A stretch of DNA of 37,392 nucleotides from an uncultured Chitinophagaceae bacterium (GTDB lineage: Bacteria; Bacteroidota; Bacteroidia; Chitinophagales; Chitinophagaceae). Made by a program: the position numbers and the translations under genes. Of this stretch, positions 4,083-37,198 are shown one piece after another (position 1 is the first letter of the stretch; each line of letters begins with the position of its first letter). The DNA lies in NCBI GenBank assembly GCA_903895845.1, contig CAITVK010000041.1, positions 1 to 37,392 on the forward strand, read 5' to 3'. Under the pieces are notes generated by a model that had not been told where the DNA came from, ran no database searches, and was given only the letters and a program-made list of their open reading frames with translations.

Positions 4083-4461
4083 TTTGCTGGCAACATAGTT
4101 CTGTCTTTTGGGCGGAAACTGCTGTTTGCTGTCAGTATAGTTCTTTACTGACAGCAAAACACCTTGCTTACTGCCAACATAGTTCTATACTGACAGCAAA
4201 ACACCTTGTTTGCTGCCAACATAGTTCTTTACTGGCAGCAAAACACCTTGTTTGCTGGCAACATAGTTCTATACTGACAGCAAAACACCTTGTTTGCTGC
4301 CAACATAGTTCTTTACTGGCAGCAAAACACCTTGTTTGCTGGCAACATAGTTCTTTACTGACAGCAAAACACCTTGTTTGCTGGCAACATAGTTCTATAC
4401 TGGCAGCAAACAGGCGTTTTTACCCAAAAAGTAGTTCTATACTGGCAGCAAAACACTTTTT
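4083..4461. repeat. Nine 42-bp tandem units with alternating inverted motif
   Basis: The acatagttct core recurs at exactly 42-bp steps (4093, 4135 as gtatag, 4177, 4219, 4261, 4303, 4345, 4387, 4429 degenerate). Each unit holds TTTGCTGnCA, a 14-nt spacer and TGnCAGCAAA, then ACACCTTG. The 10-bp arms are exact complements in the units at 4125, 4209 and 4293 and have one or two mismatches elsewhere. The units at 4209 and 4293 are identical; the first and last are diverged. The array ends about 40 nt before the ATG at 4503. There are no unique spacers, so it is not CRISPR. Because 42 is a multiple of 3, several reading frames stay open through it, but I do not call it coding. Confidence 0.9.
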
Positions 4462-4502
4462 TTAATCAAATAGTATTATCAATTAATCTAAAAAATAAAA
4501 AA

Positions 4503-5456
4503 ATGAATTTACCTTGGAAATACCTTCTCGATCAGATGGAAATACAAACAGAGAATAACGTTAAAAAAGCAGTTACATTGAGCCTCTATCACGACTCCTC
4601 ATTGTATACACTCTCCCTAATTTATCCCGGGCTTTTGCCTTATTACACACGCTACCATCCGTTACACCTCAGCTTTATGGATGGCTATACCAACCTGGAC
4701 AGTAGCGGCGGCGCCAAACAAGGCGACAGGGTATCGGTAGAAATTTTGTTGGTATCGTCCAAACAAACGCTTGCAAATACCTGGCTGGTAGACATCTTGA
4801 AACTGCACCCAAAAGGGTCTGCACGCTATATTGCCATATTTCCCAACGGGATGACACCATTTAACTCCAAAGGGATAGACGCCCGCATTGCTGCCTACAG
4901 CACCCTTGCCAAAAACATTGGCAGCGAAGTGGCTCTGGCAAGTACAAAAACCGATGTAACCACCGCCTACAACAACCTACTGGCTGCAAGGGCAACGCAA
5001 ACCAATGCCAAAACAAGCACAAAAGACACTAGTGGCACACTGAACGACTTGCGTGTGGCTGCCATGGAAATGCAGTACAGGAATCTGGGCGGCATAATGG
5101 ATACTTTTTTTGATACGAGGGAAGTACTTTGTCCCCTTTTGTTTGATCTGGTAACATTACGCATCAATCCACAGACCCTTTTTACGGGCAATTTGGTGGG
5201 CAGCATGAAGAAAGCAGTACTGGCAAACACTTTTAAAGCCACAGATACTGTTGACGTGAAGGCGACCCAGATAACCAGATTGTATTTGTCTACCACCATC
5301 GGCGGCATTGACAGCACGCCAATTACGGTTCCGGCAAACATAAAAACCACCATCAACGTAGCCGATTTTGGCGTAACAGACTACACCGCTCACCGCTTTC
5401 TAACTATTGTAAACCAAGCAGTAGTGGCAGGGAAGTACTCGATAACATTGCAATAG
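4503..5456 (+). CDS. Unrecognised 317-aa protein
   Basis: I chose the ATG at 4503 (MNLPWKYLLDQMEIQ) because it follows an A-rich leader and starts non-repetitive sequence. An upstream TTG at 4374 in the same frame would add 43 residues made of the repeat array. There is no signal peptide or clear membrane helix. Residues 1-130 look alpha/beta, the middle (about 140-200) is Ala/Thr-rich and helical with many Lys, and the last 70 residues look like a beta-sandwich (ITRLYLSTTIGG...TVPANIKTTI). No catalytic motif was recognised and no function is offered. It sits alone between the 42-bp array and a long inverted repeat. Overall composition resembles its neighbours. Confidence 0.75.
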   Translation: MNLPWKYLLDQMEIQTENNVKKAVTLSLYHDSSLYTLSLIYPGLLPYYTRYHPLHLSFMDGYTNLDSSGGAKQGDRVSVEILLVSSKQTLANTWLVDILKLHPKGSARYIAIFPNGMTPFNSKGIDARIAAYSTLAKNIGSEVALASTKTDVTTAYNNLLAARATQTNAKTSTKDTSGTLNDLRVAAMEMQYRNLGGIMDTFFDTREVLCPLLFDLVTLRINPQTLFTGNLVGSMKKAVLANTFKATDTVDVKATQITRLYLSTTIGGIDSTPITVPANIKTTINVADFGVTDYTAHRFLTIVNQAVVAGKYSITLQ

Positions 5457-5459
5457 GAA

Positions 5460-5534
5460 AGTTCTGAGTTATGAGTTATAAGTTATGAGTGCAAATACAT
5501 GTCACTCATAACTTATAACTCATAATTCAGAACT
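5460..5534. repeat. Long near-perfect inverted repeat (32-bp arms)
   Basis: Arms at 5460-5491 and 5503-5534 match at 31 of 32 positions around an 11-nt loop. Each arm is built of a 7-bp motif (GAGTTAT, GAGTTAT, AAGTTAT, GAGTG). It starts four bases after the stop of the 317-aa gene. It could act as a transcription terminator or mRNA-stabilising hairpin, although no strong T-run follows on the + strand. It may equally be a dispersed intergenic repeat. Confidence 0.85.
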
Positions 5535-5578
5535 AACTACTGCTTTTTAGTCTTAATATTGCCACTTAAAACTTAACA

Positions 5579-8413
5579 GTGCGTAATTTCCTGCTATTAC
5601 TTCTTTCTTTTATTATACTCACAAGGGTTTCTAGCCAAACGCAACCGTATTGGCAGCAACAGGCCAACTATTCCTTGAGGGTTCAACTGGACGATATTCT
5701 CAACAGCATCGATGGCTATGAGCAAATTGTGTACACCAACAACTCGCCAGATACGCTTCATTTTATATGGTTCCACCTGTGGCCCAATGCCTACAAGGAC
5801 GATAAAACTGCCTTTAGTGAGCAGATGCTTCGAAACGGTAGGACCGATTTTTACTTTGCCAACGATGAAGACAGGGGATATATCTCTAACTTGTCGTTCA
5901 AAGTAAATGATGTAAAAGCCGATACGCAACAGCATCCACAATACATTGATATTGTAAAAGTATTATTGCCCCAACCGTTGCCACCGGGGCAAAGTGCCAC
6001 CATCACTACTCCTTTTCATGTGAAACTTCCCTTCAATTATTCAAGAGGTGGTCATGTGGGACAGAGTTATCAGTTAACACAGTGGTATCCCAAACCTGCG
6101 GTGTACGATAGCAAAGGCTGGCATCCGATTCCTTACCTCGATCAAGGTGAATTTTACAGTGAATTTGGCAATTTTGATGTACAGATTACCTTACCTCAAA
6201 ACTACATTGTAGCCGCTTCGGGGCAATTGCAAGACACCAGCGAACAACGCAAACTGTTGGAGATTGCAGCCACAAAACCCAGTGAACAAAAGAATTACAT
6301 TTATTATGAAGAAAGGACACAGAGCAGAGGTACAGGCAGTGGAAGCGGCATGGAAGAACTAGCCCCTCGGTCTTCATCCACCAATAAAACATTGCATTAC
6401 CAACTGACCAATGCCCTAGACTTTGCCTGGTTTGCCAGTAAGCAGTTTATGGTTTTGCACGATACGGTTCAGCTTCAATCAAAAACAGTTGATATATTCT
6501 CCTTCTACCCGCCATGGGATGCAGTAAACTGGAAAACAAGTGTACGCTTTGCGAAAGCTGGTCTGAAGTATTATGATAGTCATATTGGTAGCTACCCCTA
6601 CCCAATTGCCAACATAGTAAGTGGCCCCAAAGTAACGCCGAGTGGGGGCATGGAATATCCCTCCATCACCCTCATCAATGTACCCGGCGGCGGCAAATCA
6701 CTGGATGGCGTAATTGCCCACGAGCTTGGCCATAACTGGTTTATGGGGGCATTGGCAACCAACGAAAGGGATCATCCCTGGATGGATGAGGGCATGAATA
6801 CCTTTTATGAGCAGAATTACCTGAAAAGCAGGTATGCGGCAGACAGTGACTGGGCTTCTTTGCTGGATGAGAATCTGGAAACTTCCATCATAAAAAACCT
6901 AGAGAACATACACAAAGATCAACCAATAGAACTAACAAGCGACTCGTTTACACTGGCTAACTACGAGCTGTTTGTATATAAAAAGACAGCCCTTTGGATG
7001 GAACGACTACGGACGCAACTGGGTAATGACCTCTTTGAAAAAGCTATGAAGAGCTACTATGCCCAATGGCAATTCAGGCACCCGTATCCGACAGACTTTA
7101 AGCAGTCGATAGAAGCGGCAAGTAACCAACATATAGATGCTTTGTATAGCGATTTATATACTACCGCCGCACAAAGACCAACACCTGTTGCCCCAAGGAA
7201 ACCCTTGAAACTAGGCTTTCTGTTTCCTGCAAAAAATACGGATAAGTACCAGTACATTTCGGTAGCGCCCTTGCTAGGTTATAATGCGTACGACAAACTA
7301 ATGGTTGGTGGCCTCATCCATAACTACCAGTTGCCGTTAAGTAAATTCAACTTTCTGGTGGCGCCATTGTATGGTACGGGCAGCAACCGCCTCAACTATT
7401 ATGGCAGGGCATCGTACAGGATATTGCTGCAACATGGCTTTTTTGATAACATCAATATCAATACTTCGGTCAGCAGTTTCAGCTATGCACACATCAATTT
7501 CTCCGATTCCGTGTATCCTGCCCAATATACTTTGCAGTTCTTTAAAATAGACCCTACCATCAGGCTGAACATCCGCAATAAAAGCATTACCAGCTCGGTG
7601 CGGAGTTTTATCCAGCTGAAAACTTTCTTTATCAATGAAGGTAATTATAGTTCCAATGCCATCAATATAGGTACAAGAACATACGACTCCAGCTATCAGA
7701 TAAGCACAAACAGACACCTGGCACAGTTGAGATTTAATATTGAAGATTATCGCAAACTGTATCCTTACAGCGCTGACCTTACGATTGATGCAAACGAAGA
7801 TTTCTTGCGGGCGGGGCTTACTGCCAACTACTTCTTTAATTATCCGTCTGGCAAAAATGCTGGCTTGAATGTACGTTTGTTTGCAGGCAAGTTCTTCCAT
7901 TTAAACCAAGACAATCCATACAATACCTCGCAGTATTTTCTTACACTTACTGGCCCACGTGGAGGAGAAGACTATACCTACAGCAATTATTTTGTGGGAA
8001 GAACAGACTTTGATGGGGCAAAGAGTCAGCAACTGATGGAACGTGATGGCTTTTTTAAAGTAGCTACGGATTTGCAAGGCGAAGTAGGTAAAACAGACAA
8101 CTGGTTATCGGCAGTTAACTTCACCAGCAGCATACCAAAGATACCATTTGTGAAGGCTTTTGTAGATGTTGGCACGTATGCCGAAGCATGGGATGTAACC
8201 AATACGGGTAGTCACTTTTTGTACGATGCAGGGTTGCAATTATCTCTTCTAGATAATTGTGTGAATGTTTATGTGCCCTTTTTGTATAGTAAAGTTTATC
8301 GAGATTACTACACATCAATCTTCCCCGGACAGAGTTTTGCAAAGAGTATTTCATTCAGCATAGATATTCAACGGATAAAACTATACAAACTTACTAAAGG
8401 GATTCCTTTGTAA
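5579..8413 (+). CDS. M1-family zinc metallopeptidase with extended C-terminal region
   Basis: 944 aa starting at GTG; this is the only start that preserves the signal peptide (MRNFLLLLLSFIILTRVSSQ). The zinc site is HELGH at 381-385 with the third ligand Glu404 eighteen residues later, the exact M1 spacing. GGMEY at 356-360 corresponds to the family GxMEN exopeptidase motif, with Tyr replacing Asn. Residues 30-560 form the N-terminal beta-domain and catalytic domain. From about 590 the sequence changes to alternating aromatic/polar strands (LAPLYGTGSNRLNYYGRASY, NLFAYQY-like patterns) ending in a short basic tail, which resembles an outer-membrane or surface beta-barrel rather than the usual helical M1 C-domain. 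It is probably exported and acts on peptides outside the cytoplasm. The lipoprotein gene follows after 23 bp. Confidence 0.9.
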   Translation: MRNFLLLLLSFIILTRVSSQTQPYWQQQANYSLRVQLDDILNSIDGYEQIVYTNNSPDTLHFIWFHLWPNAYKDDKTAFSEQMLRNGRTDFYFANDEDRGYISNLSFKVNDVKADTQQHPQYIDIVKVLLPQPLPPGQSATITTPFHVKLPFNYSRGGHVGQSYQLTQWYPKPAVYDSKGWHPIPYLDQGEFYSEFGNFDVQITLPQNYIVAASGQLQDTSEQRKLLEIAATKPSEQKNYIYYEERTQSRGTGSGSGMEELAPRSSSTNKTLHYQLTNALDFAWFASKQFMVLHDTVQLQSKTVDIFSFYPPWDAVNWKTSVRFAKAGLKYYDSHIGSYPYPIANIVSGPKVTPSGGMEYPSITLINVPGGGKSLDGVIAHELGHNWFMGALATNERDHPWMDEGMNTFYEQNYLKSRYAADSDWASLLDENLETSIIKNLENIHKDQPIELTSDSFTLANYELFVYKKTALWMERLRTQLGNDLFEKAMKSYYAQWQFRHPYPTDFKQSIEAASNQHIDALYSDLYTTAAQRPTPVAPRKPLKLGFLFPAKNTDKYQYISVAPLLGYNAYDKLMVGGLIHNYQLPLSKFNFLVAPLYGTGSNRLNYYGRASYRILLQHGFFDNININTSVSSFSYAHINFSDSVYPAQYTLQFFKIDPTIRLNIRNKSITSSVRSFIQLKTFFINEGNYSSNAINIGTRTYDSSYQISTNRHLAQLRFNIEDYRKLYPYSADLTIDANEDFLRAGLTANYFFNYPSGKNAGLNVRLFAGKFFHLNQDNPYNTSQYFLTLTGPRGGEDYTYSNYFVGRTDFDGAKSQQLMERDGFFKVATDLQGEVGKTDNWLSAVNFTSSIPKIPFVKAFVDVGTYAEAWDVTNTGSHFLYDAGLQLSLLDNCVNVYVPFLYSKVYRDYYTSIFPGQSFAKSISFSIDIQRIKLYKLTKGIPL

Positions 8414-8436
8414 GAGAATCAATCAATTCAAATAAA

Positions 8437-9393: not shown

Positions 9394-9433
9394 TAATGTA
9401 CTTTGTATTACTAACCACTTATTACTTACGACT

Positions 9434-10288: not shown

Positions 10289-10341
10289 AACCCTTACCCA
10301 AGGGGTGAAAACGTAAAGTATATTATTTACAACTTATTAGA

Positions 10342-10683
10342 ATGAGCAAAAAGATAAAACCACTCAATAGCTTTAGTGGGCTTGTGTACAGCACCGACCC
10401 TAACTTTAAGCTAGAAGATAATGAGGAAACACAAGAGACTTTACCAGCAAATCAGCAGAAGCTAAGGATACGATTGGAAACGAAACATCGTGCAGGAAAG
10501 GCAGTGACTTTGGTTACCGGATTTATTGGCACCGAAGATGATTTGCAAACGCTAGGAAAACTGCTTAAAAATCATTGTGGCACGGGTGGCTCTGCAAAAG
10601 ACAATGAAATAATCATTCAAGGCGACCAAAGGGAAAGGGTATTGAAGTATCTATTGACGAAAGGGTTCTCTCAAAGTAAATAG
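10342..10683 (+). CDS. SUI1/eIF1-family translation factor (YciH-like)
   Basis: 113 aa. The SUI1 fold occupies about residues 38-110: KLRIRLETKHRAGKAVTLVTGF, then LKNHCGTGGSAKDNEIIIQG and RVLKYLLTKGF. The CGTGGSAKD signature is the family hallmark. In E. coli the homologue YciH influences start-codon discrimination; the role in Bacteroidota is not established. The N-terminal 35 residues are acidic and probably flexible. It is 53 bp after nadC on the same strand and convergent with the phytase-like gene 17 bp downstream, with no obvious terminator between. Confidence 0.93.
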   Translation: MSKKIKPLNSFSGLVYSTDPNFKLEDNEETQETLPANQQKLRIRLETKHRAGKAVTLVTGFIGTEDDLQTLGKLLKNHCGTGGSAKDNEIIIQGDQRERVLKYLLTKGFSQSK

Positions 10684-10700
10684 TGATTAGTGATTAATGG

Positions 10701-11840: not shown

Positions 11841-11957
11841 ATTGTATTTTGCCGCAAACTAATAAAAATTGGCTACGATTTATCTATGCAATTGGTGATA
11901 AACCTTTTAAATACAGACTGCTTGTAAAAAATGATTATAAAGGAAGGTGGTTCCTAT

Positions 11958-12824: not shown

Positions 12825-12836
12825 TTGATATCAGGC

Positions 12837-13946: not shown

Positions 13947-13954
13947 TCTGTTTA

Positions 13955-26790: not shown

Positions 26791-26861
26791 TCAGACAAAT
26801 ATCAATTTAAAATAAATACAGCCAAGACCTTTCGCCGATTATAAAACGCCCTCTGCCCTTC

Positions 26862-28952
26862 CTATGCAATCTTGCTCCATCCTGTCTTTCCTTTCTGCTG
26901 TTGAAGGAAGCTTTTCAAAGGCAAATTCTCTGCCATATCCAATCCTTCATCCTTTGTTACAACTGCTTCGGCCCATTGTTTGGCACTTTCCAGTACTTGC
27001 CTGTCATTTACGAGAGAAACCAGTTTAAAGTTCAAAGCACCACTTTGTCTTGTTCCTTCAATATCTCCCGGCCCTCGTAGCTCCAAGTCTTTTTCTGCAA
27101 TCTTGAAGCCATCATTGGTGGCACACATCACCTTGATACGTTCCCGGCCTTCTTTGCTTACTTTCTGACCCGTTAAAAGAATGCAAAAGCTTTTTTCACT
27201 GCCTCTTCCCACACGTCCTCTCAGCTGATGTAATTGTGATAAGCCAAACTTTTCAGCACTTTCAATTACCATCACACTGGCATTGGGTACGTTTACACCC
27301 ACTTCTATTACAGTGGTACTGACCATTATGTTTGTTTCGCCATTCACAAATCGGTCCATATTGGTTTGTTTCATATCGGCAGGCTGTCTACCATGAACCA
27401 TACTGATGAGGTAATTGGGTTCGGGGAAAAAGCTTTTTACTTGTTCATATCCTTGCATCAGGTCTTCGTAGCTCACCTTTTCGCTTTCATCAATCAGGGG
27501 ATAGATAATATAAGCTTGTCTTCCCTTTTCAACTTCACCTCGTATAAATTCCATCACACTTGCCCTTGCCATTTCATCGCGGTGCACCGTCAGTATGGGT
27601 TTTCTTCCCGGTGGCAGTTCATCCATCACACTATAATCCAGATCGCCATAGGCAGTCATTGCCAATGTCCGTGGGATTGGTGTTGCCGTCATCACCAATA
27701 TATGTGGAGGAATCTTTGCCTTTTCCCACAGCTTCGCCCGCTGAGCCACACCAAAACGATGCTGCTCATCTACCACCACAAATCCTAAGTTCTTAAACTG
27801 AACCGTATCTTCTATCAAGGCATGTGTACCTACCAGAAAATGAAGGGACCCATCCAACAAGGCGGCATGGATTGCCCTTCGTTCTTTTGCCTTTGTGCTA
27901 CCCGTGAGTATCCGGATGTTCAACGGCATGTCTTTCAACAACTCACTCAGACCAGCATAATGTTGTTGTGCCAGAATCTCTGTAGGTGCCATAATGCAAC
28001 TCTGGTAGCCATTATCCGCCGCCAGCAACATACTCAACAAGGCCACAATGGTCTTTCCACTTCCTACGTCGCCTTGCAATAACCGGTTCATCTGATGCCC
28101 CCTTGCAGTGTCCTGACGAATTTCTTTCAGTACCCGTTTCTGTGCATTGGTGAGCTCGAAAGGTAAATGATTGTTGTAAAAGTTATTGAAGTAATCGCCA
28201 ACCTTTTCAAACAACACGCCCTGACTACTTTTGTGACGCTGCAACCTGATGAGGCTCAACCGTACTTGTGCAATAAAAAACTCTTCGAATTTTAGCCTGT
28301 TCAGTGCCCGCTCATACTCTTCGGGGGAAGAAGGAAAGTGTATTTTTAGATACGCATCATAGCGGGTCATCAGCCTCAACTGCGCCAATACTTCATTTGG
28401 AATATTCTCTGGGATATCCCTTTGTTTCAGTTGAGAAAACAGTTGTTTGGTGAGTGCCGCCAATTGCCTGCCGCCTAAGTTTCTGGCTTTTAATTTCTCA
28501 GTACTTGGATACACAGGTTCCAGAAGGTTCTTGGCGCCTTGTTGTGCAGGTACAAACAGCTCCATTTCGGGATGCACCATTTGTGGTTTGTTATTGAAGA
28601 CGCCTGTTCGACCATACACCAGGTATCGTGAACCCAATACTAAGTTCTTTTCTACCCAGTTGATGCTCTGAAACCAAGCTAATTCCAACACACCCGTTCC
28701 ATCCTGCAATTGCCCAACAAGTCGGCGGCCTCTTCCTTCGCCAATAGCTTCCAGGTGGGTGAGCCTGCCAATTACTTGGATAAAATCGGTATCGGTATGA
28801 ATGTCCGCAATGCTATTTACCTTGGTTTTATCTATGTGACGGAAAGGAAAATGCCCTAGTAAATCCTCGAAAGTATAGATATTGAGATCTTTCTTAAGAA
28901 GATCGCCCCTGATGGGACCAACTCCTTTGAGGAACTCAATGGGTGTTGACAA
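26862..28952 (-). CDS. recG: ATP-dependent DNA helicase RecG
   Basis: 696 aa, usual length. It unwinds branched DNA and remodels stalled forks and Holliday junctions. The N-terminal wedge/OB domain starts FLKGVGPIRGDLLKKDL, with FPFRHIDKT near 35. Helicase motifs: RLLQGDVGSGKT (Walker A) near 288, MAPTEILAQQHY, VVVDEQHRFGV (DEQH, motif II) near 390, VMTATPIPRTLAM (motif III), MVHGRQP, VSTTVIEVGVNVPNASVMVIE, QLHQLRGRVGRG (motif VI) and FKIAEKDLELRGPGDIEGTRQSG. The start is TTG at 28952; no in-frame ATG lies nearby upstream. A TATATTTG box about 40 nt upstream supports this start. It is independent of the adhesin genes. Confidence 0.97.
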   Translation of the reverse strand: MSTPIEFLKGVGPIRGDLLKKDLNIYTFEDLLGHFPFRHIDKTKVNSIADIHTDTDFIQVIGRLTHLEAIGEGRGRRLVGQLQDGTGVLELAWFQSINWVEKNLVLGSRYLVYGRTGVFNNKPQMVHPEMELFVPAQQGAKNLLEPVYPSTEKLKARNLGGRQLAALTKQLFSQLKQRDIPENIPNEVLAQLRLMTRYDAYLKIHFPSSPEEYERALNRLKFEEFFIAQVRLSLIRLQRHKSSQGVLFEKVGDYFNNFYNNHLPFELTNAQKRVLKEIRQDTARGHQMNRLLQGDVGSGKTIVALLSMLLAADNGYQSCIMAPTEILAQQHYAGLSELLKDMPLNIRILTGSTKAKERRAIHAALLDGSLHFLVGTHALIEDTVQFKNLGFVVVDEQHRFGVAQRAKLWEKAKIPPHILVMTATPIPRTLAMTAYGDLDYSVMDELPPGRKPILTVHRDEMARASVMEFIRGEVEKGRQAYIIYPLIDESEKVSYEDLMQGYEQVKSFFPEPNYLISMVHGRQPADMKQTNMDRFVNGETNIMVSTTVIEVGVNVPNASVMVIESAEKFGLSQLHQLRGRVGRGSEKSFCILLTGQKVSKEGRERIKVMCATNDGFKIAEKDLELRGPGDIEGTRQSGALNFKLVSLVNDRQVLESAKQWAEAVVTKDEGLDMAENLPLKSFLQQQKGKTGWSKIA

Positions 28953-28992
28953 TATATTTTCTGAGTAATTGATAGCTAGCTTATTTTGTTTG

Positions 28993-29000
28993 CAAATATA
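28993..29000 (-). promoter_or_regulatory. Candidate recG promoter -7 box
   Basis: TATATTTG read on the minus strand is an exact match to TAnnTTTG, followed by C, and lies about 40 nt before the recG TTG start. No convincing -33 TTTG is seen at the expected distance. Confidence 0.4.
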
Positions 29001-29061
29001 CAGGGTGACTAGCAGGCATTATTATTATCAGTAACGGCTAGACACATAACAGAGTCACTGC

Positions 29062-29098
29062 ACCAGTCGATCAGATTCAAACATTTCAGCGCAAGATG
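29062..29098. repeat. Dispersed ~35-bp repeat, copy 1
   Basis: The segment from CCAGTCG to GCGCAAGAT matches 30127-30163 at about 30 of 35 positions. On the minus strand both can be read as related peptides (LALKCLNLIDW here, LALECLIVSDW there), suggesting remnants of one coding sequence. An alternative is a shared promoter-like ATCTTGCGCT element. Confidence 0.55.
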
Positions 29099-29110
29099 GG
29101 GGCATGGGCA

Positions 29111-29785
29111 CTAGCTTGGTTGATGTATAGTATCATTATATACTTTTATATTATTTGACATACTTGAATATGCAGTAATCCGAAGAAAATAAATAGGGGC
29201 ATTTCCTTTGACTGTTCCATTTAATAGCATTGGTTGCATTTTTGATGGTTTTAGAAATAATTTATTATTATTTTCTTTTGTCCTTACCTCAACCGAAAGA
29301 CTGTCAAAAAAAACAGTAGAAAAATGCAATTCAATGTTATTTTTTTCATCTTTAATGTAATCTACAAATGGATTACCTTTCTCCTCAATCAATTTTCCAC
29401 TTTCACTATATTTTCTGATATAAGAACTTTCACTTTTATGTCCTACATAATAACAATATTCTTCAAGAATACCATTTTGATAGAATTCAAAATGATGTCC
29501 GTACTTGTCTTTTAACAAAAAAGTTTCAATTTCTCTAACTTTTTTTTTGTCAATATCATGATAGTAGATGTATGTGTTAATTAAAGCATTGCAATAACTG
29601 GTTGTAATCAAGTACAAACTTTTATTTGGATTAGGAAAATATTCTCTCCTAATAGTAGAATCAGTCCCATTTTCTATGATATTAAATATCTTATTTGAAG
29701 AAATCACAGGTTGCCAATTACATGATGATAATATTGTAATTAGTAGTGTTGTCAAAATAATTCTATTAATCTTTTTTTCCTTCAC
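29111..29785 (-). CDS. Hypothetical lipoprotein
   Basis: 224 aa starting at GTG (KEKKINRII follows). ILTTLLITILSSC is a lipoprotein signal with Cys near 22. The middle has a short MORN/antitoxin-like pattern, FEFYQNGILEEYCYY and SESGKLIEEKG, in which FY-x-NG-L-E alternates with charged residues. The C-terminus is beta-rich. No catalytic motif is seen and the family is not recognised. It is AT-rich compared with recG and lies next to decayed repeat sequence, so recent acquisition is possible. It stands alone, and the GTG start is supported only by the intact signal. Confidence 0.7.
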   Translation of the reverse strand: MKEKKINRIILTTLLITILSSCNWQPVISSNKIFNIIENGTDSTIRREYFPNPNKSLYLITTSYCNALINTYIYYHDIDKKKVREIETFLLKDKYGHHFEFYQNGILEEYCYYVGHKSESSYIRKYSESGKLIEEKGNPFVDYIKDEKNNIELHFSTVFFDSLSVEVRTKENNNKLFLKPSKMQPMLLNGTVKGNAPIYFLRITAYSSMSNNIKVYNDTIHQPS

Positions 29786-29863
29786 TTTTAGGTTTAATTT
29801 TAAGTATGATTATTTACCGTATCATTAGCAGACTCCATCTATCGAATACCATCTAATTGACTT

Positions 29864-30012
29864 GTCCTAGAATCGGGACTACATGTGCTCGCCGTTACTA
29901 ATCCCCTACTAGTCCACTTCATTATATGCTTTTCTTCCATTTGCTTTCCAAACTCTTCCAATATTCCATTTTCTTCTCCAACATCAGTCAAAGTATCACC
30001 CACAACATACCA
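29864..30012 (-). pseudogene. Diverged duplicated coding remnant, copy 1
   Basis: The block pairs with 30584-30730 at a nearly constant offset of 720 bp, roughly 75 percent identical by eye, with the best-conserved stretch AGAATCGGG through CCACTTCA. Minus-strand reading gives MKWTSRGLVTASTCSPDS. No start, stop or domain boundary can be fixed and the parent family is unknown. Confidence 0.45.
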
Positions 30013-30126
30013 TAATACTGAGGATAAAGATAGGATTCTTGGATTAAACTTGAAATAAAGCTTCCCCCTTCTATTGCCCCAATACCATCCAACCGTACTT
30101 GTCCAAAAATCGTGATATCAATGCGC

Positions 30127-30163
30127 CAGTCGCTCACAATCAAACATTCTAGCGCAAGATAAG
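30127..30163. repeat. Dispersed ~35-bp repeat, copy 2
   Basis: Partner of 29062-29098 (about 30 of 35 positions equal). A 12-bp core, AGCGCAAGATAA, also recurs exactly near 36658 upstream of rocD. Confidence 0.55.
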
Positions 30164-30372
30164 CATCCAAGTTGACGGTTACGAGCTTGTTTGTTTTTAT
30201 ATTCAATAAATACTGATTCTCCCTCTGCTACCTTACCTTGTTTCAATTTGAGGTTAAGTTATCATCAAAATAACCAACTCTACATCTTAGTAACTGCCAG
30301 TCTAGTTTCTCTTATTATTGTGCTATAAATCTTGAATAATATGCCAAATCATGCCCACCTTGGGTCTTGCAA

Positions 30373-30562
30373 GGAGTACCAAGAATGATTCTGGGAGTTC
30401 CAAGAATGACCCAAGGAGTACCAAGAATGATTCTAGGAGCTCCATAAGTCATCCAAGGAGTACCATAAATGACCCAAGGAGTACCATACCCCATTCTTGG
30501 AACTCCATAACTCACCCAAGGAACTCCAAGAACGATTCCTTGGACTCCTTGGGTCATTCTTT
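30373..30562. repeat. Nine 21-bp tandem units
   Basis: Units begin with GGAG/GGAA/GGAC at 30373, 30394, 30415, 30436, 30457, 30478, 30499, 30520 and 30542, a step of 21 bp except the last (22). The consensus is GGAGTACCAAGAATGAyyCwn. Two units contain the odd palindrome AGAAT-G-ATTCT. Several frames on both strands are open because 21 is a multiple of 3; for example the minus strand reads as a 7-residue G-T-P-W/R-V-I-L repeat. I see no start signal and do not call it a gene. The second decayed block begins about 20 bp after the array. Confidence 0.9.
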
Positions 30563-30583
30563 GGCGGCAGTAATGTAGCCCGT

Positions 30584-30730
30584 GTTCCAGAATCGGGGTC
30601 ACATGTTCTCTCCGTTACCAATCCACGGCTAGACCACTTCACTAAATACTTTTTCCATTGGTGTTCCAAACTCCATCACCTTTATAAGTTTCATACCAAC
30701 AGCTATCAAGGTATCACCTGCAGCACACCG
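30584..30730 (-). pseudogene. Diverged duplicated coding remnant, copy 2
   Basis: Counterpart of 29864-30012. Minus-strand reading gives VKWSSRGLVTERTCDPDSG, and upstream a GDTL motif in a different frame, so at least one frameshift separates the two parts. It lies directly beside the 21-bp array. Confidence 0.45.
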
Positions 30731-30918
30731 TGACACTGAGCATAAAGTTGAAATTCAAGCGTTAAATTCAAAATAACATCTTGTTATGAATGAAATAATG
30801 CTATGATGAGACAGGATAGTACAACTACCTATAAAATTGAAAGGCCACGAGGTAATTGTAGTCTAACACAAATTATGATTGCATCTGATGATTAAAACCT
30901 GGTCTATAATGACCAAAC

Positions 30919-31503
30919 TTAAATTCCTGGAGTAGAGGGGGGAGGAGTTGTTGCCGGCGTAGGATTGGTAGTAATAGTACGCCCCTTCATCTGACGTTTA
31001 TTTATCTCTTCATTATTCAATTCACTCGTCTTTATCAGAATACTTGCATTGGTGCCAGCATGAATAAAATAATTCTTTCCTTCGTAGGTAATCGCACCAT
31101 AATCTCCAATCCAACTATTGGCCAATATCTTGTAGGGATCAGAATCTGTGGCATATTTTGTTTTACCAAACGTGAGATATTTGTCATCCCCTATTTCAAA
31201 AGAGATTAATACTTTGTCGGGTAATACTTTGGTACAGACGCCGGGAGTATTTCTTTTTAGGGTAATGATATTCAGGTTCTTGCCATTCTCGAACCGTACA
31301 ATACCAGAAGTAACTTTGGTTTCATCCTTTAATATTTCCCTGGAAAGCTCTACATCCCTATCTACATAAAACTGCAGCTGAGTAAGCGGCGTTCCGGTAC
31401 TTTCTACTTTCTGCCTTACTTGTGTGCTGAAATAAATTTTGGAACTACTGCAAGAGGTAATGACAACCAAAAGGGCAATTACTATCAGACTATTGTTTCT
31501 CAT
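30919..31503 (-). CDS. Hypothetical lipoprotein
   Basis: 194 aa. The signal IALLVVITSC places the lipidated Cys at residue 18. The body (20-170) is beta-rich: IYFSTQVRQKVESTGTPLTQLQFYVDRDVELSRE, then GIVRFENGKNLNIITLKRNTPGVC and YAITYEGK-like strands. The tail from about 172 is low-complexity Thr/Pro (TNPTPATTPPP). No catalytic residues or named family were recognised. A periplasmic or outer-membrane location is likely. It lies 84 bp downstream of ispH on the same strand and could be co-transcribed. Confidence 0.8.
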   Translation of the reverse strand: MRNNSLIVIALLVVITSCSSSKIYFSTQVRQKVESTGTPLTQLQFYVDRDVELSREILKDETKVTSGIVRFENGKNLNIITLKRNTPGVCTKVLPDKVLISFEIGDDKYLTFGKTKYATDSDPYKILANSWIGDYGAITYEGKNYFIHAGTNASILIKTSELNNEEINKRQMKGRTITTNPTPATTPPPSTPGI

Positions 31504-31587
31504 TTTGTATATTTTTGAAGTTGTTTAGCCAATTCTATACCACAAAATGAGGAATAGCAGCCAATTAACCAGCCTTTCACAAAAGTT

Positions 31588-32814
31588 TTATTCAAACTCG
31601 GTGAGTAGTTCATCCACTAGGTCATCTGCGTTGTAGAACCCTGCCAACTTCCTTATAACTTCTTCTACCAATGCATCCGGACAGCTTGCGCCACTGGTTA
31701 TCAATACTTTTACAATGTCTTTCTGTGGCAGGAAATCATTGGTAACTGTTTGCTGTTTTGTGATCCAGTTGCAATGGGTAACCGTATGTTTATCTGCAAT
31801 TCTGTTGGCACTATCAATGAAATAGGTAGGTAGTTTTTGTTCGCAAAGTTCTACTAAGTGCGAAGTGTTACTACTATTATATCCCCCAATTACCAATGCA
31901 AGGTCTGCTTGGGTTTCCAACAATCCACTTACCGCTGTCTGGTTATCGTTGGTAGCATAACATAGCGTGTCTCTTGTGTCGGCAAAGCGTTCACCAATAG
32001 TTGCATCCGTTAGTTGATAATGTGTTTTCACCACTTGCTTCAAATAATCGGAGATTGCTTGTGTGTCGCTTGCCAGCTGCGTTGTCTGATTTACGACTCC
32101 AAACCGTTGTAAGTCTTTAGTGGCATCGAACCCTTGGGAGAAACGACCTTTGAACTCCTCGGCAAAGGCGCTGGATTCCTTTTCCCCTGTAATATATTTA
32201 GCCAGTTCTATGGCTTCCTTCATATCATTTACAATAATACTGGGACTATTTTGTGCTGCATGTGAAAAGGTAGCCCTTGTTTCTTCGTGCTTTGGTTTAC
32301 CGTGTATCACAATGCTATAGCCTTTCTTGGCAATTTGCTCGCTTCTGTTCCATACCTTTTCTACAAAGGGGCAAGTAGTGTTGTATTTCTCTGTGGCTAT
32401 CCCTTTTTCGTTTAGCAATGCCTCAATGTTCAAGGTCGTACCAAAAGCAGGAATCAATACAATATCTTCTTTGGTAATCGTATCAAAGTCTATCAGTTGT
32501 TTGCCATAGGTATCTTGAAGAAACTGAACCCCACGGGCTTGCAGGTCGGCATTTACTTGTGGGTTGTGAATCATTTCACTCAATAGGAAGATGCGTTTAC
32601 CGGGATTTTCATCAATGGTTTTGAAGGCTATCTCGATGGCATTCTCTACCCCATAGCAAAAACCAAAATGACGGGCTAGATAAATGTGCAATCCCCCGAA
32701 ATCCAATAAAGTAGGTGAATAATCTTTTTTCAGTTTATCATCCTGCTTACGTTTGTTTTTGATGGCACTGATTAACGAACTGCGGTATATATTGGGAATT
32801 GTAAATTGCTTCAT
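31588..32814 (-). CDS. ispH: 4-hydroxy-3-methylbut-2-enyl diphosphate reductase (long form)
   Basis: 408 aa from the ATG at 32814 (MKQFTIPNIYR). A non-ATG start ten codons earlier lies inside an inverted repeat and is rejected. It catalyses the last MEP-pathway step, giving IPP and DMAPP, using a 4Fe-4S cluster. Cluster cysteines fit Cys53 (HFGFCYG), Cys148 (NTTCPFV) and Cys285 (DTLCYATND). HGKPKHEET carries substrate-binding His/Glu residues, and ITSGASCPD is the C-terminal signature. E. coli IspH is about 316 aa; this protein has a longer N-terminus and inserts like the cyanobacterial and plant forms. It lies downstream of dxs, with 183 bp and an inverted repeat between them. Confidence 0.96.
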   Translation of the reverse strand: MKQFTIPNIYRSSLISAIKNKRKQDDKLKKDYSPTLLDFGGLHIYLARHFGFCYGVENAIEIAFKTIDENPGKRIFLLSEMIHNPQVNADLQARGVQFLQDTYGKQLIDFDTITKEDIVLIPAFGTTLNIEALLNEKGIATEKYNTTCPFVEKVWNRSEQIAKKGYSIVIHGKPKHEETRATFSHAAQNSPSIIVNDMKEAIELAKYITGEKESSAFAEEFKGRFSQGFDATKDLQRFGVVNQTTQLASDTQAISDYLKQVVKTHYQLTDATIGERFADTRDTLCYATNDNQTAVSGLLETQADLALVIGGYNSSNTSHLVELCEQKLPTYFIDSANRIADKHTVTHCNWITKQQTVTNDFLPQKDIVKVLITSGASCPDALVEEVIRKLAGFYNADDLVDELLTEFE

Positions 32815-32827
32815 AATTATGTATCGA

Positions 32828-32943
32828 TTTTGCCACAAAGACACAAAGACCTAAAGCTGAACTAAGAAAGGAGAAAGAGAAAGAAGTTTAAATCTTATGT
32901 CTTCTTTGCGTCCCTTTGTGACTTAGTGTCTTTGTGGCGAAAA
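32828..32943. repeat. Inverted repeat of the 'cacaaagacac' intergenic type
   Basis: TTTTGCCACAAAGACAC at 32828-32844 is the near-exact complement of 32926-32943 (one inserted base). Inward of the arms, CACAAAG-like units recur with a 7-8 bp period (CACTAAG, CACAAAG, CGCAAAG). This kind of element is widespread between genes in Bacteroidota. Here it lies between dxs and ispH, where it may act as a terminator or processing hairpin. Confidence 0.75.
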
Positions 32944-32997
32944 TATCTTTTTCTTAAACAACTAAGACTTAATAGCAGAAGGGAGTTTTAAGAATAT

Positions 32998-34932
32998 TTA
33001 TCCTGCAATGAGTGTGCTTACTTTTAGTGTAGCACCTACCAACGACCTTACTGTACTGGCAATGGCATCTGCATCATAGCTACATTCATGGTACAACTCT
33101 TTCAAGGAGCCGTGTTCTACCAGCCTGTCTGGAATACCTAATATCTTCACTTCAGCTTTATAGTTATGTGCAGCCATAAACTCTAGGATAGCACTACCAA
33201 CACCACCTACCACAGTACCGTCTTCTACCGTTACTATCTTGGTATATTTTGCAAATACTTCATGTAAAAGTTCTTCATCCAGTGGCTTCACAAAACGAAT
33301 ATCATAGTGTGCAGGATTTATTCCCTCACTCCTCAATGTTCTGATGGCCGCTTGTGCGAAATTGCCCGGATGACCATAACTTAATATCGCTACATCTTCT
33401 CCATCTTTTAGTTTTCTTCCCTTGCCAATCGTAATTTCCTCCAGTTTAGTTTGCCATTCGGGCATTACACCATTTCCTCTTGGGTAACGGATTACAAAAG
33501 GAAGAGTTGTTGATTCCAGTTGAGCGGTGTACATCAGGTTGCGTAATTCCTGCTCATTCATCGGTGCAGAAATAATCAGGTTGGGTATGCAACGGAAGTA
33601 AGCAATGTCATAACAACCATGATGTGTTGGCCCGTCCTCTCCTACTAACCCTGCTCTGTCCAGACAGAATACCACTGGTAGCTTTTGTATGGCTACGTCG
33701 TGCACCACCTGGTCGAACGAGCGTTGCATAAAGGACGAATAGATATTGCAGAATACACGCATGCCTTGTGTTGCCAAGCCTGCACTTAGTGTTACAGCAT
33801 GTTGCTCGCAGATGCCCACATCAAACGCCCGGTTAGGCATCTTTTCCATCATAAACTTGAGGGAAGAACCACTAGGCATAGCCGGGGTAACGCCCATTAT
33901 CTTATCATTCTGTTCTGCTAATTCTATCATGGTATGCCCAAATACATCCTGGTATCTAGGCGGCTGTGGTGCATTATATGTTTTCTTTACAATCTCACCA
34001 GTTATCTTATCAAACAAACCCGGGGCATGCCACTTGGTCTGATCTTGTTCTGCTAAGTCATACCCTTTCCCCTTGGTAGTGATGATGTGCAAAATCTTAG
34101 GACCTGGAATGTTCTTTAAATCTCGGAGCGTATCTACCAGCTTGGTAATGTTGTTACCATCTATTGGCCCGAAGTAACGCAGCTTTAATGCTTCAAATAA
34201 GTTACTACTACTGCTTACCATTCCCTTAACGCTGTCGGCTAGTTTGTGTGCCATTGTTCTGCTGATACCTTTACCCACAGGCAGTTTGCCCATTATCTTC
34301 CACACATCATCCTTCATTTTGTTGTAGGTAGGAGAGGTGGCAATATCAGTCAGGTATTCTTTTAAAGCACCCACATTAGGGTCGATGCTCATGCAGTTGT
34401 CATTCAGTATTATCAGTACATCGCTGTCAGCAACACCTGCGTGGTTCATAGCTTCAAAAGCCATCCCAGCGGTCATGCTTCCATCACCAATAATGGCAAC
34501 GCTTTTTTTGTTTTCTCCTTTGTATTTGGCTGCCATAGCCATGCCAAGTGCAGCAGATATAGAGGTAGAGGAATGTCCTACGCCGAAGGTGTCGTATTCG
34601 CTTTCGCTTCTTTTAGGGAATCCACTTAAACCGCCATACTTTCTATTGGTAACAAAACTATCCCTTCTCCCGGTGAGTATTTTGTGACCATAAGCTTGGT
34701 GACCAACGTCCCAAACTAATTGATCGTAGGGGGTATTGTAAACATAATGCAAAGCAACGGATAATTCTACCACGCCCAAGCTAGCAGCAAAGTGACCGCC
34801 ATGTACACTCACTACGTCAATAATGTACTGACGAAGTTCATCGCATACTTTATGCAAGTCTTTCTTTCCTATTTTCTTTAAATCATCTGGGGAGTTGATT
34901 TCCTTCAATAATGCGCCGGGTAAAATATCCAT
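32998..34932 (-). CDS. dxs: 1-deoxy-D-xylulose-5-phosphate synthase
   Basis: 644 aa from the ATG at 34932 (MDILPGALLK); a TTG directly before it is ignored. It condenses pyruvate and glyceraldehyde 3-phosphate, the first committed step of the MEP pathway, using thiamine diphosphate. Domain I has WDVGHQAYGHKILTGRR near 74-90, GVGHSSTSISAALGMA near 117 and the ThDP/Mg motif GDGSM (149-153) through N179. Domain II has GICEQHAVTLSAG with the catalytic Glu and DRAGLVGEDGPTHHG. Domain III is the C-terminal transketolase-type domain (GTVVGGVGSAILEF). A promoter candidate lies just upstream, and the rocD terminator isolates it from rocD. Confidence 0.98.
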   Translation of the reverse strand: MDILPGALLKEINSPDDLKKIGKKDLHKVCDELRQYIIDVVSVHGGHFAASLGVVELSVALHYVYNTPYDQLVWDVGHQAYGHKILTGRRDSFVTNRKYGGLSGFPKRSESEYDTFGVGHSSTSISAALGMAMAAKYKGENKKSVAIIGDGSMTAGMAFEAMNHAGVADSDVLIILNDNCMSIDPNVGALKEYLTDIATSPTYNKMKDDVWKIMGKLPVGKGISRTMAHKLADSVKGMVSSSSNLFEALKLRYFGPIDGNNITKLVDTLRDLKNIPGPKILHIITTKGKGYDLAEQDQTKWHAPGLFDKITGEIVKKTYNAPQPPRYQDVFGHTMIELAEQNDKIMGVTPAMPSGSSLKFMMEKMPNRAFDVGICEQHAVTLSAGLATQGMRVFCNIYSSFMQRSFDQVVHDVAIQKLPVVFCLDRAGLVGEDGPTHHGCYDIAYFRCIPNLIISAPMNEQELRNLMYTAQLESTTLPFVIRYPRGNGVMPEWQTKLEEITIGKGRKLKDGEDVAILSYGHPGNFAQAAIRTLRSEGINPAHYDIRFVKPLDEELLHEVFAKYTKIVTVEDGTVVGGVGSAILEFMAAHNYKAEVKILGIPDRLVEHGSLKELYHECSYDADAIASTVRSLVGATLKVSTLIAG

Positions 34933-34946
34933 CAAGCAGATTTTTG

Positions 34947-34977
34947 TAAAAGTAATGGTTTGCCTTTTATCAGCAAA
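34947..34977 (-). promoter_or_regulatory. Candidate dxs promoter
   Basis: Minus strand TTTG (34977-34974), a 19-nt spacer, then TACTTTTA (34954-34947), which matches TAnnTTTG at seven of eight positions with ideal Bacteroidota spacing. The predicted leader before the dxs ATG would be only about 10 nt. Confidence 0.45.
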
Positions 34978-35099
34978 ACCTAGATTTAGAACAGCAGGGG
35001 ATAAATAATGTTCGGATGGATGGGATGATGTTGTACTAAACTAGTGATAACCATCTACTTTTTTAAATACATACCTATCCATTATATCTGATTTGTGTC

Positions 35100-35140
35100 T
35101 AAAAACATGGCAACTACTTTTTATAAAGCAGTTGCCATGT
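35100..35140 (-). terminator. Rho-independent terminator after rocD
   Basis: ACATGGCAACTACTTT (35105-35120) and AAAGCAGTTGCCATGT (35125-35140) pair over 16 bp with one G-U wobble and a 4-nt loop. Read on the minus strand the stem is followed by a run of five T. It lies 80 bp after the rocD stop and before dxs. Confidence 0.85.
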
Positions 35141-35219
35141 AGCTATGTTATATCCTATCCGTTTGCATAAAGACAAGTTCTGACATTAAAGACTGTTTGC
35201 GTTGATCATTTCGCTACCC

Positions 35220-36452
35220 TTACTCCAATGTCTTCAAAGATTTGCTGATAATCCCTACACACTCCATTATCTGTTCTTTTGTAATGATTAATGGTGGTGC
35301 AAAACGGATCTTATCTCCGTGAGTAGGTTTTGCCAATAATCCATTGTCCCTCAATGCCAGACACAAATCCCATGAAGCATCAGGGTTCTCGTGTTGTATT
35401 ACGATGGCATTCAGCAACCCTTTTCCACGAACAGTTTTAATTAATGGGGAATTCAGTTTCACCAGTTCTTCCCTCAATAATTGTCCCATTGCTTCGGCGT
35501 TCTCAGCCATTTTTTCTTCTTTCAACACTTTCAACGAAGCAATAGCTACTGCACTAGCCAATGGATTTCCTCCATAAGTACTTCCATGTTCACCTGGTTT
35601 AATGGTGAGCATGATCTCGTTGTTGGCAAGTATTGCCGCAACGGGCATAGTACCTCCACTAAGTGCTTTTCCCAATATCAATATGTCGGGCTTCACGTTT
35701 TCATGGTCGCAAGCCAATACTTTTCCTGTTCTGCAAAGACCTGTTTGTATTTCATCGGCTATAAAGAGGACATTATATTTAGTACATAGTTCCCTCACTT
35801 TTGTCAGATAGCCTTCATCAGGAATCACTACACCTGCTTCGCCCTGGATTGGTTCTACCATAAAGGCTGCAACGTTAGAATCCTTCAAAGCAGTTTCCAA
35901 AGCAACTGTGTCATTGTATGGAACAAGTGCAAAACCTGGCATAAACGGACCAAAGTCTTTGTAACTGCTAGGGTCTGTAGAAGACGAGATGGCAGCGAGT
36001 GTACGACCCCAGAAGTTACCTTCTGCAAATATTACTTTCGCTTGATTTACGGGTACGCCCTTGTGTTTGTATGCCCAGCGTCTTGCCAATTTAATAGCAG
36101 TCTCACCCCCTTCAACGCCAGTATTCATTGGCAATACTTTGTCGTAACCAAAAAACTCGGTTATATACTTTTCGTATTCCCCCAAAATATTGTTATGAAA
36201 AGCCCGGGAGGTAAGGGTTAATGTTTGGGCTTGCTTTGTAAGTGCTTCGATGATTGTTGGATGACAATGTCCTTGATTAACGGCTGAGTAGCCGCTTAAA
36301 AAATCATAGTACTTCTTGCCATCCACATCGGTGAGGTAAACGCCCTTTCCTTCGGATAAAACTACTGGAAGCGGATGATAGTTGTGTGCGCCAAACTTGT
36401 CCTCCAGTTCCAGATAATAATTACTCTTTTCAGATAATGTATGTGTATTCAT
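35220..36452 (-). CDS. rocD: Ornithine aminotransferase
   Basis: 410 aa class III PLP aminotransferase. It converts ornithine and 2-oxoglutarate to glutamate-5-semialdehyde and glutamate, linking arginine and proline metabolism. Motifs: [20 protein letters not shown] and [16 protein letters not shown] near 50-65, [17 protein letters not shown] near 110-126 (PLP phosphate loop), [14 protein letters not shown] near 198, [14 protein letters not shown] near 230 (Asp233 of ADE contacts the PLP nitrogen) and the Schiff-base Lys262 in [10 protein letters not shown]. The [10 protein letters not shown] and [11 protein letters not shown] segments distinguish ornithine aminotransferase from other class III enzymes. 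It is monocistronic, ended by a clear hairpin terminator. Confidence 0.95.
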
Positions 36453-36899
36453 TCGTTTGTTGTTAATGCGTGAAAACTCCCCTTGCCTCAGCTGTAAACT
36501 GAATGACGATTGAGTTGAAATAATAAGAATTTGTCTTGCTAAAGTTGCGTTAGACAGGTGCTAAAAAGATTGCTTGTAATAAAGAATAATCACAACCCAA
36601 AGGGATGATCGAGAAAGTCTAAATTCGAAAGAAGAAATAACATATCACCTGATTAGGAGCGCAAGATAATAAATTGTAATGGAATGAACACCCTTTTGAT
36701 GATGATAACCTTTACAAAAGTTATCAGTCACTATTTGCAAGCGCTGTTGTCTTTCCTTCAAAATGGGAATGAATACTCATTATTTGAGTGATGAATGGCA
36801 TTTATTGTGCGATTTATGTGCTTTTTGCAAAACTCATTCGTCCCTGAACAAACCAAAATAGTCCAAAATCAGCCTTTTTTGCTGGAGGAAAAGTTTTGA
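36453..36899. other. Intergenic region upstream of rocD
   Basis: No gene is seen in about 450 bp. It holds a 22-bp imperfect palindrome at 36704-36725 and a minus-strand ATTATCTTGCGC near 36660 that loosely resembles a -7 box and shares a 12-bp core with 30127-30163. At its right end GGAGG (36885-36889) precedes the first ATG of the array. Nothing else is supported. Confidence 0.5.
36704..36725. promoter_or_regulatory. Possible operator palindrome
   Basis: GATAACCTTT, two central bases, AAAAGTTATC: nine of ten positions pair. The size and symmetry suit a dimeric regulator site, but it is 250 bp from rocD and no regulator gene is adjacent. Confidence 0.25.
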
Positions 36900-37198
36900 A
36901 ATGTCTCAAATTGAATATGACATGTCTGAGATTGCACTTGATTTTCCTGAGATTGCATTTGATTGGTCTTAGATTGAATATTACACGCCTTAAACCTTGT
37001 ATTACAAATGTTTTATCCTGTATTACACGCCTTAAATCTTGTATTACAAGTGTTTTATCCTGTGTTACACGTCTTAAATGCTGTATTACACGGGTTTTAT
37101 CTTGTATTACACGTCTTAAACCTTGTATTACAAGTGTTTTATCTTGTATTACACGTCTTAAATGCTGTATTACACGGGTTTTATGGTATGTTACATGA
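36900..37198. repeat. About fourteen 21-bp tandem units with TGTATTACA cores
   Basis: TGTRTTACA recurs at 36998, 37019, 37040, 37061, 37082, 37103, 37124, 37145 and 37166, always 21 bp apart, with weaker forms at 36977 and 37187. The core is a perfect odd palindrome (TGTA-T-TACA). Between cores two alternating flanks occur, CGTCTTAAA and AGTGTTTTAT types. To the left a different-looking sequence keeps the same step (ATTG at 36910, 36931, 36952, 36973). Two + frames stay open through the array because of the period. No spacers and no flanking CRISPR genes are present. Confidence 0.9.

Follow-up and report, generated by a model that had tools for sequence, protein, structure and literature searches.

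Intergenic tandem arrays with 21- and 41/42-bp units in a Chitinophagaceae genome and their link to a multicopy gene family

Three arrays in one register

The window, meaning the whole 37,392-nucleotide stretch analyzed here, is contig C41 (CAITVK010000041.1) of an uncultured Chitinophagaceae bacterium whose assembly (GCA_903895845.1) comprises 4.01 Mb in 138 contigs. It carries three intergenic tandem arrays, which the first-pass annotation of this DNA had described as unrelated in sequence and phased at 21 bp. Both Tandem Repeats Finder (TRF) and a listing of the units bore this out. Array 1 (4081 to 4463, plus strand) consists of about eight units of 42 bp and is degenerate at both ends; TRF places it at 4123 to 4463, with periods of 42, 84, and 126 bp. 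The arms of its unit are inverted (TTTGCTG.CA ... TG.CAGCAAA; dyad 0.71, p=0.010). Forty base pairs past its end lies the ATG of a gene (4503 to 5456, plus strand; 317 amino acids [aa]) belonging to an array-linked family that we call q45. Array 2 (30370 to 30558) has about eight 21-bp units with GGAGTACC/GGAACTCC cores; it is regular across 30370 to 30528 and decays beyond, on its right side, and its unit has short matches at C28:85544-85601 and C72:56421-56489. Array 3 (36901 to 37198) holds 21-bp units of two related types, GAGATTGCACTTGAT (36901 to 36984) followed by TATTACACGTCTTAAATCTTG (36979 to 37198), in a single continuous register.

The sequence of each array matched itself best at multiples of 21 bp. 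The peaks were at lags of 84 and 42 for 4083 to 4461 (match fractions of 0.85 and 0.83; best lag outside multiples of 21, 0.51), at 42, 21, and 63 for 30373 to 30562 (0.70, 0.66, and 0.66; best other lag, 0.37), and at 42, 84, 21, and 63 for 36900 to 37198 (0.74, 0.70, 0.69, and 0.62; best other lag, 0.39). The best rotated identity between the units of the three arrays was 0.38 to 0.45, while shuffled units of the same length had a mean of 0.42. When positions 28001 to 37392 were shuffled 20 times in two-base blocks, no array of at least 100 bp arose.

Periods of the arrays in the genome and its relatives

The periods were then counted in 61 sequences, the window and 60 other stretches that together cover 812,041 bases, or 20% of the genome; most of them were the initial 20 kb of a contig among C1 to C40 and C61 to C80. 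Two of these stretches (C28 and C72) were chosen at the array 2 matches and contribute one array of at least 100 bp. The basic period was 20 to 22, 41 to 42, or 65 bp in 40 of the 44 arrays of at least 100 bp: 22 arrays had a period of 21 bp, nine of 42 bp, five of 41 bp, two of 65 bp, and one each of 20, 22, and 12 bp, and three had no short period. None of the 44 had a period of 40 or 43 bp. Two arrays with an identical 41-bp unit lie at contig starts (L070 and L084) and may be one locus. Autocorrelation also gave spikes at 21, 42, 63, 84, 105, and 126 bp, but its base level was inflated, probably by masked runs of N, and it was not used.

We defined a class of 46 arrays of at least 60 bp, one of which has a period of 168 bp and was let in as a multiple of 21. 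They have a median length of 205 bp, account for 1.2% of the sampled sequence, and can be sorted into 33 unit families. The first-pass annotation had proposed that a common process makes or maintains 21-bp-phased arrays in this genome, and the sharp peaks at 21 and 41 to 42 bp among mostly unrelated units, in these samples of the genome and its relatives, support such a process. None of the 46 arrays overlapped a gene called by a simple caller based on open reading frames (ORFs) and codon usage. An ORF does cover each array of the window (4055 to 4465, plus; 30315 to 30602, minus; 36896 to 37198, plus), but such frames come easily because the period is divisible by three.

The class has a restricted distribution in the sampled genomes. 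In stretches from 12 genomes of the same genus (578 kb, with one stretch, G004:C4, chosen at a known match), 28 of the 52 arrays of at least 60 bp belonged to it. In other genera of the family (17 genomes, 340 kb), one of three arrays of at least 60 bp did so, and in 78 named LytB loci and 20 stretches of relatives outside the genus, 1.76 Mb in all, one of 13 arrays of at least 100 bp did so, located at L097. Arrays of other periods were seen in the genome G012, namely, a complex of about 850 bp of 9-bp units of the AACTCCCTA type (L211, 3398 to 4243) and a 7-bp array of 368 bp (L214, 6890 to 7257).

A gene family downstream of 41/42-bp arrays

The q45 family is multicopy, with proteins of about 320 aa; this genome has eight matches, and others of the genus have as many as 20. 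Among the 33 family genes with at least 250 bp of upstream sequence in hand, 30 had a 41/42-bp array upstream. The genus contributed 26 of 28, and G032, a genome of a different genus, 4 of 5. These 30 arrays end 33 to 268 bp before the start codon, and in none of them is the basic period 21 bp. The test left out L287 and L289 (short upstream sequence), the C119 copy (contig end), and L297, L303, L310, L311, and L186 (lacking a match that begins at the start and is nearly full length), although a 41-bp array does lie 62 bp upstream at L186.

Of 396 genomes of the order searched with a profile, 31 contained the family. Twenty-nine of these had not been looked at before, and for 20 of them we retrieved a single upstream stretch; 15 of these 20 q45 genes of other genera (families f8, f12, f16, and f18) had a 41/42-bp array upstream. 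Both sets together, an array precedes the start codon in 45 of 53 q45 genes. Arrays of the 41/42-bp type occurred within 500 bp upstream of 10 of 411 control genes in this genome (the q45 gene of the window included), 6 of 300 in the genus, and 0 of 1,023 in relatives outside it; the difference outside the genus (19 of 25 q45 genes against 0 of 1,023 ordinary genes) has a p of about 1e-35.

The association is kept while the sequence of the units is replaced. Many q45 units of the genus share TTTGCT...AGCAAA ends and differ in their interiors, and nothing was evidently common between the units of diverged paralogs. Nineteen q45-upstream units from 19 genomes were no more alike than shuffled ones (0.426 versus 0.421; 171 pairs).

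In a single-sequence search, q45 was found in 11 of 13 genomes of the genus and in 2 of 46 others. The two genomes of the genus in which that search did not find it, G005 and G008, had no array of at least 100 bp in 125 kb, where about five were expected (chance of 0.007); they showed weak stretches, one of 68 bp with a period of 22 bp in G005 (L315) and two others shorter than 50 bp.

The q45 protein of the window had no sequence match in Pfam, NCBIfam, or PDB, and single-sequence searches of viral contigs, plasmids, and phages yielded no relatives. Weak matches of the family in PHROGs, PADLOC, Pfam, NCBIfam, and PDB (best E values of 0.0029 to 0.02) were dismissed as noise, as each involved one or two members or a partial stretch. 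An AlphaFold2 model from 28 sequences (mean pLDDT of 81.6, pTM of 0.40) predicts N-terminal helices, one of them of 59 residues, and a C-terminal beta sandwich. The model had no fold match in PDB at E≤0.001 and two matches below 0.001 in a viral library, with query TM-scores of about 0.2. The median pI of the family is 8.6.

A second kind of array was observed on the other side of some q45 genes. In the window, two 7-bp arrays, of the AGTTATG type (5460 to 5490) and the ACTCATA type (5504 to 5534), lie directly 3' of the stop codon and are roughly mutually inverted. Similar 7-bp arrays, sometimes in two inverted blocks, follow q45 stop codons at L285, L286, L294, L297, L307, L310, L325, and others, and an array of 7, 14, or 21 bp was present within 160 bp downstream of 16 of 35 q45 genes and 17 of 200 control genes. 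The 7-bp arrays may form the 3' hairpin of the transcript.

Symmetry and periodicity within the units

Dyad symmetry (p≤0.05) was frequent in the longer units, in 11 of 15 arrays of 42 bp and 6 of 11 of 41 bp (17 of 26 when pooled), and was found in 4 of 36 arrays of 21 bp and in neither the single 20-bp nor the single 22-bp array; a few of the arrays counted are mutually related. In our reading, the 42-bp unit is a head-to-head pair of 21-bp sites, giving a dyad every 21 bp, and in the 21-bp array such sites follow one another head to tail.

Conservation along the 41/42-bp unit had a component at 10.25 to 10.5 bp in 18 deduplicated arrays of the genus outside the q45 family (p=0.0002). This helical component was the top one of 12 harmonics, with a leave-one-out maximum of 0.002 and p=0.03 in the paired comparison with neighboring harmonics. 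It was also present in the q45 arrays of the genus (p=0.0012), and the 10.5-bp component of 34 arrays of 21 bp had p=0.052. A shared AT-based bending code was not supported in the 21-bp arrays (z of 0.0, -1.0, and -0.4 at 10.5 bp for W, WW, and AA/TT; n=35), and the bending signal was weak in the 42- and 41-bp arrays (WW, z of 1.7 and 3.3; AA/TT, z of 2.1 and 2.6). Purine content varied with a period of 21 bp in the 21-bp (z=3.8) and 42-bp (z=4.0) arrays and not in the 41-bp ones (z=-0.3).

Twenty-one base pairs are also seven codons, as the first-pass annotation had remarked. Conservation had no 3-bp component (period-3 z of -0.6 in 36 arrays of 21 bp and -0.4 in 29 of 42 bp), and we rejected coding heptapeptide (heptad) repeats on this ground. 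The existence of 41-, 20-, 22-, and 65-bp arrays likewise rules out seven codons as a general cause. No frame was open throughout in 10 of 15 arrays whose period is not divisible by three, and one was open in 46 of 52 whose period is.

Dispersal, turnover, and placement

Some units occur at several places in a genome. Array 3's unit family was found on eight other contigs (C25, C87, C138, C22, C65, C18, C129, and C36) and that of array 1 on C34 and C13. Three of the 12 dispersed 41/42-bp arrays of this genome reached an identity of 0.6 with one of seven q45 array units (0.62, 0.83, and 0.98), and the first of these matches is weak, since shuffled units gave a 95% level of 0.52 and a maximum of 0.63. 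The same seven matched 1 of 12 arrays from other species (0.62). The unit of the q45 array on C21 recurs at C53:139276-139626, C80:15389, and C7:2-58; the stretch with the C80 array yielded no q45 gene. In G280, a genome of another family assembled in two contigs, 5 of 17 q45 candidates were scored, and the q45 array had 31 matches in its own genome; three congeners had 22, 9, and 1, and the Chitinophagaceae source genome had none.

The arrays were more frequent between divergent genes (12 of 63 gaps, with two of the arrays sharing one gap) than between convergent (4 of 67; p=0.032) or codirectional ones (13 of 305; p=0.0002). Their neighbors are varied: the 40 proteins scanned, of 72 neighbors, matched 84 Pfam families, and the 25 families listed have one or two members each. 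Comparison of gene sides with a sampled ortholog showed an array only in this genome in 3 cases, only in the relative in 9 (seven arrays, two of them seen from both sides), in both in 2, and in neither in 85. Both shared cases are at the locus of the window gene at 30919 to 31503, where 21/42-bp arrays with differing units lie 3' of the gene in seven of the eight genomes of the genus that have a close ortholog (this one included), six within 500 bp and one at about 1 kb; the eighth genome has none. In two conserved gene pairs, a short gap in this genome corresponds to an array-bearing gap in a relative (145 versus 532 bp and 40 versus 616 bp).

Three loci were inspected by eye. At L008 (about 310 to 560) and L009 (1300 to 1500), decayed, unlike words spaced at 21 bp (for example, ATACGCAAATTGC/ATACGATAATTAC) stand beside clear arrays, as if newer arrays displaced older ones in the same register. 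The array at L195 (8869 to 9064 and rightward) is homogeneous at one end and increasingly divergent toward the other, which suggests polar renewal.

Possible functions of the arrays

The spacing of nearly two or four helical turns, the frequent dyads, the intergenic and promoter-side position, the freedom of the sequence, and the conserved gene link together suggest binding platforms. We therefore infer, with confidence evenly balanced for and against, that the arrays are a genome-wide class of intergenic, multi-site DNA-binding platforms. Each platform of about 200 bp would offer one recognition site per two helical turns, either head to tail (21-bp unit) or head to head (41/42-bp dyad unit). 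Tandem amplification and exchange would keep the sites alike inside a platform, and the copying of units into further intergenic sites within a genome would allow the sequence to turn over with the spacing held. The 41/42-bp form would be anchored upstream of q45, in the manner of iterons before a plasmid rep gene, and the q45 products, or a regulator of the q45 genes, would bind both the array of their own gene and those dispersed arrays that have this array's unit. The bound factor may be a regulator or an architectural element, and q45 may be its partner and not a client only.

A more specific and more tentative version, which we consider unlikely enough to be held loosely, is a self-addressing system in which each q45-type protein has its own address array upstream and acts on all arrays with that address in the genome. 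Protein and address would then co-evolve so fast that only the 21/41/42-bp geometry stays conserved across the order, and the arrays would form nucleoprotein platforms across the genome, with a part in gene regulation or in the folding of the nucleoid.

Several observations weigh against the platform interpretation or against the part given to q45 in it. An array was absent upstream of 3 of the 33 q45 genes of the genus and G032 and of 5 of the 20 outside the genus (L335 to L339, of f3, f14, f3, f1, and f18, respectively). No DNA-binding domain was recognized in the q45 sequence or model. Nine of the 12 dispersed 41/42-bp arrays have no unit in common with a known q45 array, nearly all dispersed 41/42-bp arrays lack an adjoining q45 gene, and the phyletic pattern is the only tie between 21-bp arrays and q45. 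Most array positions differ between species, which fits spread without function as well. The helical signal is also uneven: in the q45 arrays of the genus it did not win over neighboring harmonics in the paired comparison (p=0.23), and it failed to reappear in another 22 q45 arrays, of which 18 come from other genera and 4 from this genome (p=0.70); in these, a 21-bp component was significant (p=0.002). Dyads were weaker in the further q45 arrays too (6 of 23 at p≤0.05). The earlier suggestion that a bound protein would sit on one helical face thus has mixed support: it agrees with both sets of 41/42-bp arrays from the genus, fails in the 22 further arrays, and is borderline in the 21-bp ones.

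The role of q45 could be that of a client only, the family's genes being cargo under promoters that respond to a multi-site activator or repressor from another locus, with some other function for the protein. The lack of a recognizable DNA-binding domain and the regular position of the array 5' of the start codon speak for this, whereas the differences between the units of diverged paralogs and of genomes would call for many regulators, and arrays of at least 100 bp were likewise missing from the 125 kb sampled of the two genus members in which no q45 match was found. We regard this as a real possibility that nonetheless falls short of even, and give it roughly the odds of q45 being the partner; since it can hold together with the platform interpretation, our confidence in the one overlaps with that in the other. 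The main rival to platforms as such is an inherited period, in which recombination spread copies of an ancestral 21-bp array to many intergenic places, the units were kept alike by slippage and unequal exchange, the sequence drifted, and nothing binds. Such selfish or neutral minisatellites would account for unit families present at several loci with no common flanking motif, for arrays mixing two unit types in one register, for the species-specific gaps described above, and, through recent amplification, possibly for the low ratio of indel to substitution columns within arrays (0.040, in TRF alignments, which disfavor indels). Neutral indels should nevertheless spread the period, and arrays of at least 100 bp are nearly always at 21, 41, or 42 bp and never at 40 or 43. 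Nor does an inherited period readily explain why a dyad is often retained although the sequence is replaced or why the q45 link holds across families of the order after unit similarity is lost. We rate this rival as rather unlikely.

Transcription of the units into tandem stem-loops, as a 5' leader, a noncoding RNA, or a guide-RNA array, is improbable to a greater degree, even though the 41/42-bp units are able to form stems. In 22 q45 arrays, stem mismatches on the gene strand were G-T in 39 cases and A-C in 45, and this near equality favors DNA over RNA; RNA stems on the gene strand were rejected for that reason, and the periodic transcript structures envisaged by the first-pass annotation are accordingly disfavored. 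The window had no Rfam match at the gathering score. A CRISPR or guide-RNA array was discarded as well, since no unique spacers were found in the arrays listed and the whole unit recurs. In two distant genomes (L342 and L343), a promoter-like TTGACA...TAnnTTTA was seen by eye between the array and the ATG, which also speaks against RNA hairpins. Least probable of all, and scarcely credible to us, is carriage of minisatellites in a miniature inverted-repeat transposable element (MITE), as in BrickBuilt of Porphyromonas gingivalis. That case is from the same phylum, is intergenic, and has reported units of 22/23 and 41 nucleotides (nt) (PMC4596501), and one insertion here (L214) has an inverted flank repeat. 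Pairs of flanks showed no excess of inverted repeats (score of 17.6 versus 17.4 in the null; 4 of 55 above the 95% null level), and no k-mer of 8 to 13 bp was common to most flanks. Elements bounded by terminal inverted repeats were rejected together with MITEs on these two grounds.

Comparison with known repeat systems

Plasmid iterons are direct repeats of about 17 to 22 bp at two-turn spacing that occur in several copies upstream of the gene for their binder, and their unit sequence varies between replicons while the layout is kept. The arrays described here share with them multi-copy repeats in a helical-turn register upstream of a gene (41/42 bp being about four turns). They differ in lying on chromosomal contigs, in standing before a gene family with up to 20 matches per genome, in having 41/42-bp units at the gene, and in the many dispersed arrays. 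Unlike in iteron Rep proteins, no winged-helix initiator was found; q45 has no Pfam match, and its model consists of a helical part and a beta sandwich. Operators of the LytTR type are direct repeats about 21 bp apart. The two-turn spacing of direct repeats is similar, but the arrays have about 10 sites and unrelated units. The source genome (G000) has 5 LytTR genes, a number exceeded in 16 of 23 genomes of the family's other genera; counts range from 3 to 12 across the genus and reach 39 in those other genera. LytTR operators were rejected, the regulators not being expanded.

Among repeats described in Bacteroidota, BrickBuilt and MITE464/PgRS of P. gingivalis are intergenic, multi-copy arrays of 23-, 22-, and 41-nt units, some of them in MITEs, and the BrickBuilt copies have one unit, leader, and tail in common as well as terminal inverted repeats (PMC4596501). 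Phylum, intergenic location, copy number, and unit length resemble what we found, whereas the 46 arrays here fall into 33 unit families and their flanks have neither a common motif nor terminal inverted repeats. The tandem repeats of archaeal Borgs are described as perfect, of varying unit length, about half of them in genes, and with units nearly all unique per genome (PMC9879509). The two systems have in common many independent, recently formed arrays, and the arrays here differ in their near-fixed period, imperfect units, and intergenic location.

No report of the gene-array link or of the 21/41/42-bp rule was found in the open-access literature searched, and an earlier description may exist. 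Conserved spacing with free sequence inverts the usual rule of regulatory DNA, and ordinary similarity searches are blind to such elements. If a protein reads the arrays, they would represent a new class of regulators or chromosome organizers with a built-in record of protein-DNA co-evolution; if they are neutral, so sharp a 21/41/42-bp rule among arrays of unrelated units would mean that repeat formation involves a molecular ruler. In either case, the unannotated q45 family gains a first functional lead.

Other genes near the arrays

The gene at 30919 to 31503 (minus strand, 194 aa; the match spans 175 aa in relatives) belongs, with LytB and a 645-aa gene, to a trio at 30919 to 34935 that is conserved at L095 and L096, with two of the three genes at L097. 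Past the array-bearing gap by the trio, no more window proteins were matched at these three loci. Very large repetitive genes (up to 5,075 aa, at L046) flank several arrays, in the window at 3 to 3701 and on contigs C18, C19, C30, and C31 (L045, L046, L057, and L058). The product of 3 to 3701 matches those at L045 and L057 with 97% identity over short stretches.

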